A DNA stretch of 64,000 nucleotides, taken from contig NZ_AOIQ01000009.1 of NCBI RefSeq assembly GCF_000337515.1, forward strand, positions 1-64,000, read 5' to 3'. Shown one piece after another: positions 51,071 through 58,801 of the stretch (position 1 is the first letter of the stretch; each line of letters starts with the position of its first letter). The DNA is from Halovivax asiaticus JCM 14624 (GTDB lineage Archaea > Halobacteriota > Halobacteria > Halobacteriales > Natrialbaceae). A program made the translations under genes and the position numbers. The notes beneath the pieces were generated by a model. It made no database searches. It was not told the DNA's origin and saw only the letters and a list, made by a program, of their open reading frames with translations.

Positions 51071-51393
51071 TCTCCGCATTCGACAGGCACATCGGCCCGC
51101 CCACCGTCGCACTCCGATATCTCCCAGCGAATTTTTCTCTCCTGAATAGATACACCATATCTAATATTGGAGCAAATATCCTATTCAGGCCCTCTATACA
51201 GCTATTTCGACAGATGTCGCTATCGACCGGAGGCACTCCGTCGGCAGAATTTCGTATCGCACTATATAATTTACTATATAAATGGATGGCGGGTGTGACG
51301 GCTCCCGGCGTGATCGCTCCCGTTCGACGTCGAAATCGGAAAATCGGAAGACGGTCACCGTCGCTTAAGATTCTCCAACGTGAACAGACGACC
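51071..51393. other. A/T-rich region upstream of orc1
   Basis: 323 nt without a gene. From 51125 to 51290 it is much richer in A/T than the rest of the window. It contains a 9-bp inverted repeat CCTGAATAG (51141-51149) / CTATTCAGG (51181-51189), with an imperfect CCATAT-CTA-ATATTGG dyad between. It also has two ACTATATA direct repeats (51261-51268 and 51273-51280). I saw no long ORB-type element, so an origin is possible but not shown. Confidence 0.6.
51363..51370 (+). promoter_or_regulatory. TATA-like box of orc1
   Basis: GCTTAAGA, centred 28 nt before the GTG at 51394. This decides the start in favour of a leaderless GTG. Confidence 0.55.
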
Positions 51394-52416
51394 GTGATCG
51401 TCGACGATCGGGTGCTGACCGAAGCGTTCGTTCCGAGCGAAGTGGTTCACCGGCACGAGGAGATCTCACGCCTCTCCGAAGCCGTCGAGCCGCTGCTCTC
51501 TGGCGGACGAGCCGATCCCGCGTTCCTCTTCGGGCCCACGGGCGTCGGGAAGACGTGTATCGCCCGGTACACCCTGGATCAACTGGCCGAGCGGCGGCCC
51601 TCGATTCGCGTCGCGTACGTCAACTGCTGGCAGGAGTACACCCGGTTTCGCGTCCTCTACAGCCTCCTCGAAGCAGTCGATCAGGCGTACGACGTCCACC
51701 GCTCGACCGCCCAGGACGAGTTGTACGGTCGGCTCCGATCGGCCGACGAGGCACCGATCGTGGTCATCCTCGACGAGGTCGACCAGCTAGAGGAGAGCGA
51801 GGTGCTCTACGACGTCCACCGGTTGCCGCACGTCTCGGTCGTCCTCGTCGCCAACCGCGAGGAAGAGCTGTTCGCCCGCTTCGACGACCGGGTTCGGTCG
51901 CGGTTTCGAGCGGGCACGCGCGTCACGCTGGACCGCTACGGCGTGGACGAACTCGTCGCCATCCTCGCAGAACGGGTCCGACAGGGACTCGAACCCGAGA
52001 GTGTGACCGACGAGCAGCTTCGCCAGATCGCCGACGCGGCGGCGGGTGACGCCCGGGTCGCGATCGGGATCCTTCGATCGGCCGCGACGCGTGCCCAGGG
52101 ACGCGGCGACGATCGCCTCACCGACTCACTGCTCGAAGACGCCATTCCGGATGCCCGGAACGCGATCCGCCAGAAGACCATCGAGAACCTCCCCACCCAC
52201 CAGCGGACGCTCTACGACGTGATCGACGAACACGGCGAGATCGAACCCAGCGACCTCTACGAAGCCTACGAGGACCGCGCCGACGAGCCGAAGACGCGCC
52301 GGACCGTCCGCAACTACCTCACGAAGATGGCCCACTACGACCTCGTCGAGGCCACCGGAGAGAACCGCGGGCGGACGTACCGAATCGTCGAGTCGACCAT
52401 CGTGGACACCCGTTAG
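51394..52416 (+). CDS. Orc1/Cdc6-type AAA+ protein
   Basis: 340 residues from GTG 51394, giving the usual haloarchaeal N-terminus VIVDDRVLTEAFVPSEVVHR. Walker A is GPTGVGKT (near 50), Walker B VVILDEVDQLEE (near 125), sensor 1 VVLVANREE, and arginine-rich DDRVRSRFRAG. A winged helix ends the protein (RTVRNYLTKMAHYDLVEA). It may start replication from a local origin or, as Orc1-2 does in Sulfolobus, act as a regulator of DNA-damage genes. The nearby PolB2 operon makes the second role worth testing. The frame upstream (to 51214) is not family-like. Confidence 0.88.
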   Translation: MIVDDRVLTEAFVPSEVVHRHEEISRLSEAVEPLLSGGRADPAFLFGPTGVGKTCIARYTLDQLAERRPSIRVAYVNCWQEYTRFRVLYSLLEAVDQAYDVHRSTAQDELYGRLRSADEAPIVVILDEVDQLEESEVLYDVHRLPHVSVVLVANREEELFARFDDRVRSRFRAGTRVTLDRYGVDELVAILAERVRQGLEPESVTDEQLRQIADAAAGDARVAIGILRSAATRAQGRGDDRLTDSLLEDAIPDARNAIRQKTIENLPTHQRTLYDVIDEHGEIEPSDLYEAYEDRADEPKTRRTVRNYLTKMAHYDLVEATGENRGRTYRIVESTIVDTR

Positions 52417-52612
52417 CGGAGTCGCGTCGGTACACCGCAGCCCTATCGGACGAGCCATCCGATTTTCGGCACAACTGAGCGATATCGCGCGAGCGAACGA
52501 GTACTATCGAACGATCGAATGGACACGTGGAGCGACGCCGGCCGGACGACTGACTAAAGGTGGTGGGACGTGCACGCCGGAGGGTTTTCGTGACAGGGAG
52601 TGACTGACGGGT

Positions 52613-53041
52613 ATGGGCGCATCTGGCGAGGGCGACGAGCCAGTGGTGCGGGGCGAGAGCGGTCACTCACCGGCGCACGTCTTCGCACTGCTCGCGAGCG
52701 ACGGTGGGCGACGACTGCTGACGACGCTGTACGATCGTGGGGGAACCGTCCCGGTCGACGAACTCGCCGACGAGCTCACCGCGGGAGAACAGGGCGACGC
52801 CGGCGCACCCACCAACAGACACGCCCAAAAGCGACTCCGCCACGCCATCCTTCCGACACTTGCCGATACTGGACTCGTCACGTACGACCGCGAAACGGAC
52901 GCGGTGACGCTCGCCGATCGCGGCGACCGGCTCGAACCGTACCTCGCGTGCGTCCGCGAGGCAGCGGCCACCGACGTCGCCTGGTACACCGACACCACCA
53001 CGACCGGGTGGACACCCACGGAGTCCGATACGCGCCGATAA
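52613..53041 (+). CDS. Winged-helix protein (DUF7344-like)
   Basis: 142 residues. A single winged helix spans about 20-105: HVFALLASDGGRRLLTTLYD, VPVDELADELTAGE, QKRLRHAILPTLADTGLVTYD, then a wing TDAVTLADRG. Such haloarchaeal proteins are usually regulators. A GGTTTTCG box lies 27 nt before the ATG. It sits between orc1 and the RecA-like/PolB2 operon and may control one of them. Confidence 0.8.
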   Translation: MGASGEGDEPVVRGESGHSPAHVFALLASDGGRRLLTTLYDRGGTVPVDELADELTAGEQGDAGAPTNRHAQKRLRHAILPTLADTGLVTYDRETDAVTLADRGDRLEPYLACVREAAATDVAWYTDTTTTGWTPTESDTRR

Positions 53042-53062
53042 CACGATGAGGAACGCCGGTAT

Positions 53063-53096
53063 CGGAAATTCCGGAAACGGTATTCCGACCCTTAAC
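53063..53096 (+). promoter_or_regulatory. CGGAA-palindrome operator and promoter of PolB2 operon
   Basis: CGGAA-A-TTCCG at 53063-53073 is followed directly by CGGAA-ACGGTA-TTCCG at 53072-53087. A TATA-like CTTAAC lies at 53091-53096, 27 nt before the ATG at 53120. Two overlapping inverted repeats right before the core promoter look like a regulator site. Confidence 0.6.
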
Positions 53097-53119
53097 TCCC
53101 GGGCCAGTGACGTGCCGGT

Positions 53120-53854
53120 ATGCATCACGTCGAGTTCGACACCGGCCTGACGGTGCTCCGGGTGACGTCGCCGCGGTCGACGGTCGTCCCCGATCTCGTC
53201 TGTACCAGACTGGTCGACGAATCGGGTCCGATCCACTGGGTCGACGCGAGAAACACTGCGAGTACGCACGTCCTGTACGACCGGGCGCCGAGCGCGACGA
53301 CGCTGGCCCCGCTCCGCATCGCCAGAGCGTTCACCGCATATCAGCACCACTCGCTGATCCAGGCGCTGGCACGCCAGGCCTCTGCGCGCTCGTCGATGCT
53401 CGTGGCGCCGAACGTCGACTCGCTGTACCACGACGACGATCTCGACGAGTGGGAGCGAGAGCGGTTACTCGCGGCGTCGCTTTCGACGCTCCGGGAACTC
53501 GGCCACTCGCTCGACGTCCCGGTGCTCGCGACGACCACTGGTGACACTGTTTCGCCGCGGGTCGACGAGTACGCCGATCACACGCTTGAATCCGTCACCA
53601 CGCGCGTGGGCACGCGCCTGAACGGTGACGGCGTCGAATCGGTCGGCTACTGGGACCACCACGGCTGGCAGACGACGATCCCCTACTGGGCGGACCGCTA
53701 CGGGACCACCGACGCGCTCGATCCCGCGACCGCAGTCCACGACCGGGGCCTGCTGGCACCCGACCTCACCCGGAAGTGGGAACCACCGACGACGGATCGA
53801 GAGAGCGGTCCACTGACGCGCTCGACGCCAACCATCGACGGTGGTGAGGCCTGA
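53120..53854 (+). CDS. RecA-like ATPase-fold protein without Walker A
   Basis: 244 residues. The middle follows the RecA/RadA core: a strand IHWVDARNTAS, a helix LRIARAFTAYQHHSLIQALARQ, a Walker-B-like strand MLVAPNVDSLY, and LRELGHSLDVPVLATTT. There is no GxxxxGKT in the N-terminal part, so ATP binding is doubtful. Bacterial ImuA and SulA-type proteins have the same state. First gene of an operon: its stop overlaps the next start by one base (TGATG). Likely a scaffold or accessory factor for the polymerase (inference). Confidence 0.78.
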   Translation: MHHVEFDTGLTVLRVTSPRSTVVPDLVCTRLVDESGPIHWVDARNTASTHVLYDRAPSATTLAPLRIARAFTAYQHHSLIQALARQASARSSMLVAPNVDSLYHDDDLDEWERERLLAASLSTLRELGHSLDVPVLATTTGDTVSPRVDEYADHTLESVTTRVGTRLNGDGVESVGYWDHHGWQTTIPYWADRYGTTDALDPATAVHDRGLLAPDLTRKWEPPTTDRESGPLTRSTPTIDGGEA

Positions 53855-54210
53855 TGGGGCGGACCAACCCGACCTATCGCGACGCCCTCGCACAACTCGA
53901 AGCAGAGTGGAAACCGATGCGACGCGCGCTCCGCCGCGAGTACCAGCACGACTTCGACCGGCTGTTCGATCGGGCGCGCGGGTACGCCGATGCAGCGGGC
54001 TACGCCAACCAGCCGGATCCCGAGCGCGCACTCGTCCTCTCGCTCTTGCTCGCCCACGAAGCCGAGATTCGTTGCCTCCACGACCGGCTCGACGAACTCG
54101 AACGGTCGCGCCAATCCGGCGCCTCCGAGGCGGAGACGTCGATGGAAGCGGACGCCGGAGCGACCCGGGACAGCACTCACGACACCGATACAGGGGTGGG
54201 TGCGGAGTGA
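53854..54210 (+). CDS. Small helical protein between RecA-like and PolB2
   Basis: 118 residues, helical. It starts MGRTNPTYRDALAQLEAEWKP, has an ARGYADAAGYANQPDPERALVLSLLLAHEAEIRCLHDRLDELE helix pair (about 45-90) and an acidic disordered tail. No catalytic motif. Overlaps the RecA-like stop by 1 nt and the polB2 start by 4 nt (GTGA). Probably a subunit or adaptor of the polymerase complex (inference). Confidence 0.8.
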   Translation: MGRTNPTYRDALAQLEAEWKPMRRALRREYQHDFDRLFDRARGYADAAGYANQPDPERALVLSLLLAHEAEIRCLHDRLDELERSRQSGASEAETSMEADAGATRDSTHDTDTGVGAE

Positions 54211-56609
54211 CGAGCGAGACCGAGCCGTTCACCGTCGAGTTCGAGGACGACGAGGTCCGCGCCTGGTACCTGACCGAAACCGGCGCGGAGGCAGTCGTCG
54301 ACGAGTCGTACACACCGACCACGTATCTCCACGGGCCGCCTGACGCGTTAGCGGCGGTTCGGGACGATCTCGCGACGGATCCGAAGGTGGCGGATACCCG
54401 GCTCGTCGAGAAATATACTACATTACGCGATACGAAACGGGAGTTGGCGACCGAACCCATGCTTTCGGTCTCGCTCGACCGGATGGAGGAGGTTCGGACG
54501 CTCGCACGGGAACTCATCTACCGGTACGAGGGTCCAGTCGGCCAGTACGAGAAGTCAGTATCGGCTCGATTGGCCGAGAGTGGCGATCGATCGACCGCCC
54601 CCCAGGATCGAGGGCAGCACGATCGTGAGCTACAGTTCGCTCCCGGGACGTTACGCCTGTTCGACGTGGATCTCGCGCCGGGGTTTCGGTACTGTCTGGA
54701 TCGGGGCGAATCGCCGGCGTCGTCGGCACCCGGCCGGCCGCTTCGACGATTCCACATCGCCGTCGACGAACGAGCGCTCGTGGACGGCGATGTCTCGTCC
54801 CTGCGAGTCGGGAGTGGGACAGCCGCCGACGGGTCGATCGAGTACGAGCGCCTCGACGGGCAGCCAGCTGCGGTCCTGCGGGCACTGTCGGACCGGCTGG
54901 ATCGGGTGGATCCCGACGTACTGGTGCTGAGCCACGCCGAACTGGTCCCGCTGCTCTGCGAGACGGCAGCCGACGAAGGGGTCGCCGACTTCCAACTGGG
55001 CCGGCTGCCGGGCTGGACGCGTATCGCAGGCGAGAACGCGTACGCCAGTTACGGGCAGATCGGACACTCGCCGGCCCGATACCGCGTTCCCGGCCGAGCG
55101 ATCGTCGACGAATCGAACAGCTTTCTCTGGCACCAGTCGGGGCTCCCGGGACTGCTGTACATGGTCGAAGCGAGCGGTCGACCGCTCCAGGAGGCCGCGT
55201 GGGGGAGTATCGGAACGCTCCTCACCTCGCGACAGATTCGACTGGCGCGGGCGCGAGACGTCCCCGCCCCCTGGAACAAGTGGGAGCCCGAAGCGTTCAA
55301 AGACGTCCGGACGCTGCACGCGGCCGATCGCGGGGGCTTTACCTTTTCTCCGGAGGTGGGCCTCCACGAGAACGTCCACGAGATCGACTTCGCGTCGCTG
55401 TACCCCCGGATCATCTGCGAGCGAAACGTGAGTCCGGACACCGTCAATTGTGCGTGCTGCGGGCCGGACGGCGACCGGCAGCCGCTTGATGCAGTTCCCG
55501 GATTCGACTCCCACGTCTGCCAGGACCCAGGATTCCTCCCCGACGTCCTGTCAGATCTGCTGATAGACCGTGCCGATATCAAGCGACAGCTAGCCGAAGA
55601 CGACCTCGAGGCATGCGAGCGTCGGCGACTGCGCGGCCGGTCGGGCGCGATCAAGTGGGTTCTCGTCTCGTGTTTCGGCTATCAGGGCTATCGCAACGCC
55701 AAGTTCGGCCGCATCGAGTGTCACGAGGCGATCAACGCGTACGCGCGGGAGATCGCCCTCTCGGCCAAGCAGCGCCTGGAGACCGGGGGCTGGCGGATCG
55801 TCCACGGCATCGTCGACAGTCTCTGGGTGACGCCGGCCGTCGACGATCCGGAACCTCTTGCGGACGTGATCGCCGACGTGAGTGACGACGTCGGCATCCC
55901 GCTCGAACACGACGGGACCTACGAGTGGGTGTGTTTCGTCCCCTTGCGCGACTCTGCCGGTGGTGACGAGACGCGCAAAACGGGCGGGCGGACGGTAAGC
56001 GACGCCGCCGGGGTCGAGCGGAGGCCATCCACGGCGCCGGGTGCGCTCACCCGCTACTTCGGCAAGCGCGCGTCCGGCGAGTACAAGTTCCGTGGAATCG
56101 AGCTTCGCCAGCGCTCGACGCCGGCGTTCGTGGCCGACTGCCAGCGTGAGTACGTGGACGTCTTAGACGCCGAGAGTGACCCGACGGCCGTCTGCGATCG
56201 ACTGCGTCGCCACGTCTCCGCGCTCGAACGCGGCGCCGTGGACCCGGCCGATCTCGTGACGACGAAGCGCGTCTCGAAGTCGCTCGAGGCGTACACACAG
56301 GCGACGCACACGGTCGCCGCGCTGGAGCGCCACGAGACGGTCGGCGTGCCCCGCCAGCCCGGCCAGTCGGTCGAGTACGTCGTGGTCGACGACGGAGCGC
56401 GTCGGACGAGCGAGCGCGTCCGATTGGGACTCGAACTCGGCGGCGAACTCGAGACCGGCTCAGGTCCGGACTACGACGTCGAGTATTACACCACCCTCCT
56501 GATCCGGGCGGCCGAAAGCGTCGTCTCGCCGCTCGGCTGGGACCGCGGCCGGATCCGGGGCTACCTCGCGGAGAGCGAACCGGTCTCGCTGTCGGCCTTC
56601 GGAGCGTGA
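54207..56609 (+). CDS. polB2: Family B DNA polymerase, PolB2 type
   Basis: 800 residues from GTG 54207. Motif A DFASLYP is at 394-400. Motif B is KWVLVSCFGYQGYRNAKFG at about 483-501. Motif C is HGIVDSLWV at 533-541, where the usual GDTDS has lost its first Asp; the second Asp (537), the more important catalytic one, is kept. A Cys cluster NCACC...C (415-438) is typical of PolB2. The exonuclease region is weak (LFDVDL near 151). PolB2 enzymes were first described as inactivated, but a Sulfolobus member was later reported active in lesion bypass. Last gene of a coupled operon with the RecA-like and helical proteins. Confidence 0.88.
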   Translation: MTSETEPFTVEFEDDEVRAWYLTETGAEAVVDESYTPTTYLHGPPDALAAVRDDLATDPKVADTRLVEKYTTLRDTKRELATEPMLSVSLDRMEEVRTLARELIYRYEGPVGQYEKSVSARLAESGDRSTAPQDRGQHDRELQFAPGTLRLFDVDLAPGFRYCLDRGESPASSAPGRPLRRFHIAVDERALVDGDVSSLRVGSGTAADGSIEYERLDGQPAAVLRALSDRLDRVDPDVLVLSHAELVPLLCETAADEGVADFQLGRLPGWTRIAGENAYASYGQIGHSPARYRVPGRAIVDESNSFLWHQSGLPGLLYMVEASGRPLQEAAWGSIGTLLTSRQIRLARARDVPAPWNKWEPEAFKDVRTLHAADRGGFTFSPEVGLHENVHEIDFASLYPRIICERNVSPDTVNCACCGPDGDRQPLDAVPGFDSHVCQDPGFLPDVLSDLLIDRADIKRQLAEDDLEACERRRLRGRSGAIKWVLVSCFGYQGYRNAKFGRIECHEAINAYAREIALSAKQRLETGGWRIVHGIVDSLWVTPAVDDPEPLADVIADVSDDVGIPLEHDGTYEWVCFVPLRDSAGGDETRKTGGRTVSDAAGVERRPSTAPGALTRYFGKRASGEYKFRGIELRQRSTPAFVADCQREYVDVLDAESDPTAVCDRLRRHVSALERGAVDPADLVTTKRVSKSLEAYTQATHTVAALERHETVGVPRQPGQSVEYVVVDDGARRTSERVRLGLELGGELETGSGPDYDVEYYTTLLIRAAESVVSPLGWDRGRIRGYLAESEPVSLSAFGA

Positions 56610-56692: not shown

Positions 56693-57937
56693 TCACTCAT
56701 CACCGCCGGTATCGGCCGGGGAGCCGTCGGCCGATGGCGCACGATCCAGCCGACCGGTCTCGTGGCCGGTCCAGTCGAACCGCCGTTGAAAGTAGATCGC
56801 GACGTGGACGAGCGCGAGTAAGACGGGAACCTCGATCAGCGGGCCGACCACGGTCGCGAAGGCGACGCCGGAACTGACGGTGAAGATGGCGACCGCGACG
56901 GCGATCGCGAGTTCGAAGTTGTTCGATGCCGCGGTGAAGCCGATCGCGGTCGTCGTCGAGTAGTCCGCGCCGATCGCGTGGCCCATCCCGAAGCTGACGA
57001 GGAACATGACGACGAAGTAGATCGTCAGCGGGACGGCGATCCACAGGACGTCCGTCGGCTGGGCGACGATCCGATCGCCCTGCGTAGCGAACATCACGAC
57101 GATAGTGAACAGGAGTGCAACGAGCGTGAGGGGGCTGATCGACGGCGCGAACGTCTCGTCGTACCACCGCTCGCCCTTCGCGCGGGTTCCGACGTACCGC
57201 GAGCCGATGCCTGCTGCAAAGGGAACCCCGAGGAAGACGGCGATCGCTCCGAAGACGTCCCACGGACCAATGTCGAACGTCTCGATGCCGGTGGCCATCG
57301 CGTCGAGGCCGAGCTGACCCGGCAGGAAGAGGGCGAAGAACCAGACGTAGACGCCGTAGGTGAGGATCTGGAAGACGCTGTTGAACGCGACGAGGCCGGC
57401 GGCGTACTCGCTCGAGCCGTCGGCGAGGTCGTTCCAGACGAGTACCATCGCGATACAGCGCGCCATCCCGATGAAGAGCAGGCCGAGGAAGTACTCGGGG
57501 CGGGCGGGGAACCAGGGGACGACGCCGCCGAAGAAGACGACGGCGAGGGCGAACATCAGCGTCGGCCCGATGAGCCAGTTCTGCACGAGGGAAAGCGAGA
57601 GGATTCGCCACTGGCTGAACACGCGCGGGAGGCGCGCGTAGTCGACATTCGCGAGCGGCGGGTACATCATCGCGATCAACCCGATCTCGACGAGGTGGAG
57701 GTCCTGAATGGGGTCGACCACACCGGGTGCGACGGAGCCGAGTCCCACGCCGACCACCATCGCGGCGACGATCCAGGCGGTGAGGTACTTATCGAGAAAA
57801 TCCATGGTCCGGGGGTCGCCGCAGTCCGGACAGCCACAGTCCGGGCCGTGGTCGTGCTGGACGGCCGGGTCGGGTCCCCGATCGTGCTGGGCAGCCTGAT
57901 CCGATCCAGTGCTGTCAGCGGTCGATTCGTCAGTCAT
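56693..57937 (-). CDS. acr3: Arsenite efflux pump ACR3
   Basis: 414 residues, ten helices. Exports arsenite. The ACR3 signature GMARCIAMVLVWNDLADG (with the essential Cys) and FNSVFQILTYGVYVWFF are present. A His/Asp/Cys-rich N-terminal tail (HDHGPDCGCPDCGDP) could bind metal or arsenite. The start at 57937 overlaps arsC by 8 nt. Last gene of arsR-arsC-acr3. Confidence 0.92.
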   Translation of the reverse strand: MTDESTADSTGSDQAAQHDRGPDPAVQHDHGPDCGCPDCGDPRTMDFLDKYLTAWIVAAMVVGVGLGSVAPGVVDPIQDLHLVEIGLIAMMYPPLANVDYARLPRVFSQWRILSLSLVQNWLIGPTLMFALAVVFFGGVVPWFPARPEYFLGLLFIGMARCIAMVLVWNDLADGSSEYAAGLVAFNSVFQILTYGVYVWFFALFLPGQLGLDAMATGIETFDIGPWDVFGAIAVFLGVPFAAGIGSRYVGTRAKGERWYDETFAPSISPLTLVALLFTIVVMFATQGDRIVAQPTDVLWIAVPLTIYFVVMFLVSFGMGHAIGADYSTTTAIGFTAASNNFELAIAVAVAIFTVSSGVAFATVVGPLIEVPVLLALVHVAIYFQRRFDWTGHETGRLDRAPSADGSPADTGGDE

Positions 57938-58397
57938 CGAGACCGGCCTCCAGTTCGTCGAACAGGGCGCGAACTCGTGAGTCGACGGCGTCTCGGATCC
58001 CGCTGACGGTCTCCGGGTCCGCACCGTGGGGATCGGCGAGGTTCCAGTCTCGGGCGTCACCGCGCCAGGTGGCTGGACAGATGCCGTCGACCGAACAGCC
58101 CATCGTACAGACCACGTCGCAAGTGGCCAACTCGTCGGGCGTGATCGCCCGAGGCTCGCGGTCCACGGGGTCGAGTCCGACCTCGACCATCGCGTCGGCG
58201 ACGACCGGGTGGATCGCGTCGGCGGGGTCCGTGCCGCCGGTGACGATCTTGACGGCGTCCAGGCCGCGTCGATCGCGTTCGCGTTCGGCGAAAGCGGTCG
58301 CCAGTTGGCTTCGGCCGGCGTTCTGGACGCAGACGAACGCGATCGTAACGGGCGCATCGACGTCCGCGAGGGGGACGGCGTCCGGCCGGTCAGTCAT
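57930..58397 (-). CDS. arsC: Arsenate reductase (low-Mr phosphatase type)
   Basis: 155 residues. Reduces arsenate to arsenite. The PTP loop FVCVQNAGRSQLA (C-x5-R) and the two further Cys in CTMGCSVDGICP form the thiol relay of thioredoxin-coupled ArsC. Start 58397 overlaps arsR by 8 nt. Supplies the substrate for the ACR3 pump. Confidence 0.92.
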   Translation of the reverse strand: MTDRPDAVPLADVDAPVTIAFVCVQNAGRSQLATAFAERERDRRGLDAVKIVTGGTDPADAIHPVVADAMVEVGLDPVDREPRAITPDELATCDVVCTMGCSVDGICPATWRGDARDWNLADPHGADPETVSGIRDAVDSRVRALFDELEAGLDD

Positions 58398-58788
58398 CGA
58401 TGTTACCTCGCGTCGCATCGAGCGCGGCGACGAGTCGGTCGGCCCGCTCGGTCGGGCGATAGTACCGCCAGGTGCCTTCCTTCCGTCGCGTGACGAGCCC
58501 CGCGTCGGTCAGATCCGAGAGGGCGTGACTGATCGCGCTGTCGCTGACGTCGACCAGCGGCGACAGTTCGCAGACGCACAGCTCGTCCGCAGCAGCGACG
58601 AGCAGCCGGACGAGGCGGTAGCGAGTGTCGTCGCCGAGCGTCGAGAGCGCCGCGAGGTCGGACGCCGGATCGTCCGGAACGTCCGCAGCGAGTGATTCGA
58701 GCGTCTCCAGCCGGGCGGTCACGTCCGCGTCGCAACACTCACCGAGTTCGTCCGCGACGAGTCGGTGCAATCGGTCGGGCTGGGCCAT
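58390..58788 (-). CDS. arsR: ArsR arsenic-responsive repressor
   Basis: 132 residues. Winged helix with the metalloid site ELCVCELSPLV (CVC motif) in the alpha-3 helix region, DSAISHALSDLTDAGLVTRRKEG recognition helix, and WRYYRPTE wing. Additional CC near residue 20 (LGECCDAD). Represses the operon until arsenite binds (family knowledge). The operator at 58802-58815 lies just upstream. Confidence 0.92.
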   Translation of the reverse strand: MAQPDRLHRLVADELGECCDADVTARLETLESLAADVPDDPASDLAALSTLGDDTRYRLVRLLVAAADELCVCELSPLVDVSDSAISHALSDLTDAGLVTRRKEGTWRYYRPTERADRLVAALDATRGNIDD

Positions 58789-58801
58789 ACGAATGATCAT
58801 C

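Follow-up and report, generated by a model that had tools for sequence, protein, structure and literature searches.

The locus described here lies in a stretch of 64,000 nucleotides (nt) of Halovivax asiaticus JCM 14624 (NZ_AOIQ01000009.1, positions 1-64,000, forward strand; "the window" hereafter means this whole stretch), where an orc gene of the Orc1/Cdc6 type is followed, 0.7 kb downstream, by an operon coding for iRadA, PPB2 and the B-family DNA polymerase PolB2 (53120-56609). It is probably a haloarchaeal PolB2 mutasome controlled by the linked Orc through direct repeats of the form CGGAA-N3/4-CGGAA (motif A), present in the promoters of both orc and the operon. Judged by its sequence, the operon belongs to the PolB2 mutasome family already published (PMC4104785, PMC11791011) and hence is not new as an operon. 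The element shared by the two promoters is, provisionally, what is new in this work, and it suggests a way in which haloarchaea may induce error-prone repair when their DNA is damaged.

A CGGAA direct repeat in the orc and iRadA promoters

Motif A was first spotted by reading the 110 bases located 5' of iRadA in 73 loci. The promoters of iRadA and orc have the same layout, with CGGAA-N3/4-CGGAA, 13-17 bases, CTTA and, about 26 bases further on, the start codon. In the window, where all features of the system are on the + strand, the putative orc operator CGGAA-AAT-CGGAA (51337..51349), a strict match that is conserved before Orc genes of this clade, precedes the TATA-like box CTTAAG (51364..51369). 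The orc start codon follows this box at a distance of 26-27 nt, which is also the spacing in nearly all relatives. Upstream of iRadA, the putative operon operator CGGAA-ATTC-CGGAA (53063..53076) precedes the TATA-like box CTTAAC (53091..53096), and the ATG at 53120 follows 25-26 nt downstream, a geometry that the relatives share.

With the strict pattern CGGAAN{3,4}CGGAAN{12,16}TTA, only three matches were found in the 3.24-Mb genome (before orc, before iRadA and at C21:315822), vs. none for the reversed pattern taken as control. Within about 170 bp upstream of the genes of 80 loci and the window, motif A was present before 29 of 46 Orc genes of the clade and 40 of 73 iRadA genes, vs. one of 27 other Orc genes and nine of 1998 control open reading frames (ORFs). 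Since these loci are related to one another, the corresponding Fisher values (3e-45 for Orc and 3e-55 for iRadA) overstate independence; the contrast with the controls is unaffected. A gene-blind scan of 145 genomes of the class for operator, TATA box and start codon gave 24 matches in 22 genomes (control: one), at least 22 of which precede an Orc of this clade. As predicted from these sequences, the control of the operon by Orc, which an earlier sequence-only reading of the window had proposed in outline, becomes much more specific with the promoter evidence.

Neither the motif A operator nor its regulon was found in the literature searched, outside which most subscription journals lie, and their novelty is provisional to that extent. 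As for promoter elements of the haloarchaeal response to ultraviolet (UV) light, only TTTCACTTTCA was found reported, and no regulator is named for it there; the present work adds a second promoter element and a candidate regulator for haloarchaeal error-prone repair.

Strict motif A was also seen at L122:488-620 and in L118 (minus strand, site 516), where short genes of about 110 and 106 amino acids start at +26 and +24, respectively, the first being without a Pfam match. In L125, L126 and L134, PPB2 or iRadA occurs a second time outside the PolB2 locus, in each case directly behind a motif A promoter. No second iRadA copy was found in the genome of Halovivax asiaticus itself.

The linked Orc as candidate regulator

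The orc gene (51394..52416, GTG start) codes for an AAA+ winged-helix protein of the Orc1/Cdc6 type (TIGR02928, E = 8e-57) with Walker A (GPTGVGKT) and Walker B (VVILDE) motifs, the former being present in all 46 Orcs of the clade analysed; its C-terminal winged helix (Cdc6_C) matched weakly, below the cut-off (E = 0.0015). In a quick tree, on which the phylogeny rests, the linked Orcs form a single clade of 66-67 rows, apart from the initiator-type Orcs (Shimodaira-Hasegawa-like approximate likelihood ratio test, 96-98). Two further full Orcs are encoded in the genome, and the window Orc is predicted to be a non-initiator paralogue, distinct from initiator Orcs. Given the separation of the clade, a role as plasmid or origin initiator is not favoured.

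Eighteen genomes were chosen for having a polB2 locus without a linked Orc of this clade. In 17 of these, a clade Orc is encoded elsewhere, at 392-538 bits, the other Orc matches reaching at most 184 bits except for two of 297 and 332; in the remaining genome (G069, 1.7 Mb examined) a single weak Orc match was found (149 bits). Among the 22 Orc promoters readable in this sample (L182, with a contig end close by, was left out), 12 contain both halves of the repeat and nine only one half-site, TTTCCGGAA, in the corresponding position; the last one (L184) shows TCTGGAC repeats. The Orcs of L017, L020 and L021 form a sub-clade whose internal branch is long, and in it the recognition-helix region of the winged helix changes from RNYL to RRYL. 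In two of these three loci, the iRadA region (L017:6905-6919 and L021:6899-6913) contains TTCCGTGAA-type repeats with a 9-bp period and no CGGAA.

We infer that Orc is the likely binder of motif A, because the motif accompanies orc also in genomes where orc and polB2 are not linked, because the operator changes where Orc has diverged, and because a site located 5' of the BRE (transcription factor B recognition element) and TATA box, together with a site before the regulator's own gene, matches the Sulfolobus precedent. This precedent, mentioned in the sequence-only reading, is real: in Sulfolobus, the damage-response regulator Orc1-2 has a binding site in its own promoter and switches damage-response genes on (PMC9738581), and targeted mutagenesis depends on Dpo2/PolB2, which is induced by damage (PMC7390963). 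By analogy, the window Orc is most likely an autoregulated, damage-responsive regulator of the mutasome. Both are non-initiator AAA+ winged-helix Orcs with a site at their own promoter and a functional tie to PolB2/Dpo2, binding and the non-initiator nature being predicted in the haloarchaeal case. They differ in that the window operator is a CGGAA direct repeat and not an ANTTTC hexamer, and in that haloarchaeal orc and polB2 are usually neighbours, with a control that is predicted here from sequence.

The UV-B motif as an alternative element

In Halobacterium, a 2008 study found TTTCACTTTCA before the UV-B-induced genes radA1, top6B, vng17 and vng280 (PMC2556686). In Halovivax asiaticus, it precedes radA (L254, C17:61406) and top6B (L253, C6:61906), both named from their translations, and not the PolB2 operon. 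Elsewhere, CACTTTCACTTTCAC or close forms replace motif A before iRadA in L015, L018, L019, L023 and L025; L042 and L082 have related forms. The orc promoters of L020, L021 and L026 also contain the UV-B motif, and that of L017 a variant of it. Like motif A, the UV-B motif is a direct repeat and is found in the same position, about 50 bp 5' of the start codon, whereas its sequence and its targets are different. The mutasome operon thus has either of two elements in front of it, and for one of the two a tie to UV induction comes from experiment (PMC2556686); since they replace each other before the same operon, the mutasome is linked to the published UV-B motif.

Proteins of the mutasome and organisation of the operon

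The five genes named in the sequence-only reading were all confirmed at their coordinates. The genes of the operon, iRadA (53120..53854, ATG start), PPB2 (53854..54210) and PolB2 (54207..56609, with a GTG start overlapping the PPB2 stop), share one base at the first junction (TGATG, 53852-53856) and four at the second (GTGA, 54207-54210) and therefore very likely form one translationally coupled operon, as had been proposed. The order (orc)-iRadA-PPB2-PolB2 was found again in most of 80 haloarchaeal loci, which bears out its conservation in Halobacteria.

In a Pfam scan, iRadA matched only Rad51 (E = 0.08), being too diverged for a clear match. Its AlphaFold model, built on 30 relatives, has a mean predicted local distance difference test score of 82, and the best Foldseek matches in the PDB are the ATPase domains of DMC1, RAD51 and RadA (E of about 2e-11, template modelling score of about 0.6). 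The Walker A pattern GxxxxGK[ST] is absent from all 73 relatives, the window protein reading SPRST at that loop position. These two results together make the earlier description of a RecA fold without Walker A right, and iRadA is, as in the PolB2 mutasome, a RadA-fold partner lacking both the Walker A motif and the N-terminal domain. Its relatives have an invariant QTT near the C terminus, examined as a candidate clamp-binding motif. PPB2, a small helical protein resembling arCOG07300, starts with MGRTNP, and the MGRT motif is found in most relatives.

PolB2 matches the type-B polymerase model NF004418 (793 bits, for a cut-off of 692) and PF00136 (DNA_pol_B, E = 4e-21), and no exonuclease family was found in it by the Pfam scan at E <= 1. 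The catalytic Asp is intact in polymerase motif A (DFASLYP, 55386..55406), D[FSAG]SLYP being present in 80 of 81 relatives. In polymerase motif C, HGIVDS (55803..55820) replaces YGDTDS, so that the first Asp of DxD is lost, and HGIVDS or HGVVDS is likewise found in 80/81 relatives. A C-terminal L..[FY], also examined as a candidate clamp-binding motif, is present in 71 of 81 PolB2 proteins vs. seven expected, and a canonical Q-box in only one.

Makarova 2014 (PMC4104785) described polB2 as accompanied by arCOG07300 and by radA genes that have been inactivated, among them arCOG07763, which is strongly decayed. Haloarchaea were noted there to have further arCOG07763-arCOG07300 copies, and many euryarchaea to have an arORC2 gene close by. 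The partners were named iRadA and PPB2 by Timinskas 2025 (PMC11791011), where a heteropentamer was modelled and called a mutasome. The window operon has the same three proteins in the same order, the MGRT start of PPB2, an orc1/cdc6 neighbour, the loss of the first Asp of DxD and the RadA fold without Walker A, and haloarchaeal members had already been noted. In contrast, the available parts of these accounts mention no operator or regulon; the Orc clade, its operator, the presence of the clade when unlinked and an integrase target (see below) are added here. The remark in the sequence-only reading that such a system is little studied in haloarchaea consequently holds for experiments, whereas the system itself had been described from genomes. 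Of the mutasome-like parts that were listed there, the polymerase, the RadA-like partner, the adaptor and Orc as likely regulator stand. The winged-helix protein, encoded between orc and iRadA (DUF7344, 52613..53041; PF24035, E = 1e-11), is not conserved: its gene is found at this position in two of the four same-genus genomes (G001 and G003) and at no other locus, and it is rejected as a part of the system. The likeness to bacterial ImuA-ImuB-DnaE2, and to Pol V mutasomes, is a functional analogy only, in that an error-prone polymerase, a RecA-like partner and an accessory protein are under damage control, predicted in the haloarchaeal case; the polymerase families and partners are different, those of the window being RadA- and PolB-type proteins.

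Alternative readings

The chief uncertainties concern the identity of the binder (Orc vs. another factor) and its mode of action (activation vs. repression). Several observations weigh against control by Orc as proposed above. The Sulfolobus DNA damage-responsive element (ANTTTC) differs from motif A and falls within only 22 of 69 sites of relatives (about 4% expected); in the Halovivax asiaticus genome, each of the three motif A sites has the hexamer on its reverse strand. Some genomes with an Orc of this clade carry the UV-B motif and not motif A at iRadA, so that another regulator must exist, and L026 has the UV-B motif at orc yet motif A at iRadA, an arrangement that would fit a cascade. 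Finally, Orc binding, operon induction and mutagenesis are, for Halovivax asiaticus, predictions only. The mixed genomes and L026 would also suit a motif A bound by some other, unlinked regulator, with Orc merely one of its targets and acting elsewhere, e.g. as an origin replication factor, an idea raised in PMC4104785. This is nevertheless unlikely, as motif A accompanies orc even when unlinked, the operator differs where Orc diverges and no other gene was seen conserved with motif A.

Should Orc be the binder, it might still act as a LexA-like repressor, released or inactivated after damage. The same operator on the regulator's own gene and on the operon is also typical of SOS repressors, lexA adjoins bacterial PolB2 operons (PMC11791011), and the operator position, taken alone, is compatible with repression. 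However, motif A sits 5' of the BRE/TATA with a gap nearly fixed at 13-17 nt, the usual place of an activator, and Sulfolobus Orc1-2 activates (PMC9738581), which makes a repressor slightly less likely again than an unlinked regulator. As regards the polymerase, the first Asp of DxD is lost in nearly all PolB2 relatives, and the early prediction was that of an inactive enzyme (PMC4104785), in which case the complex would be structural or regulatory in replication restart and not mutagenic. With the Asp of polymerase motif A and the second Asp of motif C kept, and with Sulfolobus Dpo2 active and needed for targeted mutagenesis despite the same loss (PMC7390963, PMC8764526), this appears quite improbable.

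Proposed mechanism

Under the preferred reading of an Orc-activated mutasome, DNA damage would be sensed via the ATP state of Orc or another signal, and Orc would be raised. ATP-bound Orc would then occupy the CGGAA-N3/4-CGGAA repeats just 5' of the BRE/TATA of orc and of iRadA-PPB2-PolB2. Archaeal activators usually bind just upstream of these elements. Orc would activate its own gene, and so amplify itself, together with the operon, thereby turning error-prone bypass on. PPB2 would serve as the adaptor that tethers PolB2, a translesion polymerase, to the inactive RadA, probably at RadA filaments or stalled forks, and PolB2 held by iRadA and PPB2 may continue primer extension across lesions, introducing mutations as it does so.

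A third motif A site: integrase modules

The third strict match in the genome (C21:315822, L087:4823) is followed by a short ORF of zinc-finger-like type and by a gene for a tyrosine integrase, the latter identified by Pfam Phage_integrase matches on relatives. The module (L087:4823-7085, from C21:315822 onward) consists of a motif A promoter, a GC-rich leader of about 180 nt with hairpins, the small ORF and the tyrosine recombinase. Related modules are present in all four same-genus genomes and in other Natrialbaceae (L117, L119, L121, L123, L127, L133 and L263-L278). When the leader sequence alone was searched, 16 copies were found in 12 of 145 genomes, 14 of them with strict motif A upstream and two with variants of other spacing.

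The leader folds into hairpins, and five pairs show compensatory change among only seven sequences, which is suggestive, though not proof, of a conserved structured RNA before the integrase. A Rfam scan of the leader gave one sub-threshold chance match only, and an IMG/VR search with integrase and leader gave unrelated matches only. A broader and more tentative proposal, which we hold to be possible rather than probable, is that of an Orc-controlled SOS-like regulon in haloarchaea, in which CGGAA-N3/4-CGGAA would drive an error-prone polymerase complex and, in addition, integrase modules that rearrange the genome and have a structured RNA leader. If true, archaea would here have made, out of a replication-initiator protein, their own equivalent of the control that LexA exerts on Pol V and on the integrases of integrons or prophages.

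Other features of the locus and its relatives

Haloviruses were searched for PolB2 and PPB2 without a match, and a viral origin of the iRadA-PPB2-PolB2 operon is rejected. Distant relatives of the window Orc, with 35-38% identity to it, are encoded by LSV-48N, Natrinema J7-1 virus 2, ChaoS9, BJ1 and Harhisp1 (records PP151251, OP012469, MK310226, AM419438 and MW344767). On Haloarcula marismortui pNG600 (L167), the Orc gene is separated from the iRadA-PolB2 genes by one for a SOS response-associated peptidase (SRAP, L167:1039-1728), and variants of motif A are found before iRadA and before PolB2. In the window itself, an inverted repeat (CCTGAATAG...CTATTCAGG, 51141-51189) is located in an AT-rich stretch about 200 bp 5' of orc, and the operon is followed, on the minus strand (56693-58800), by an arsenic-type cluster of transporter-like, ArsC-like and ArsR-like ORFs, as judged from their sequence only.

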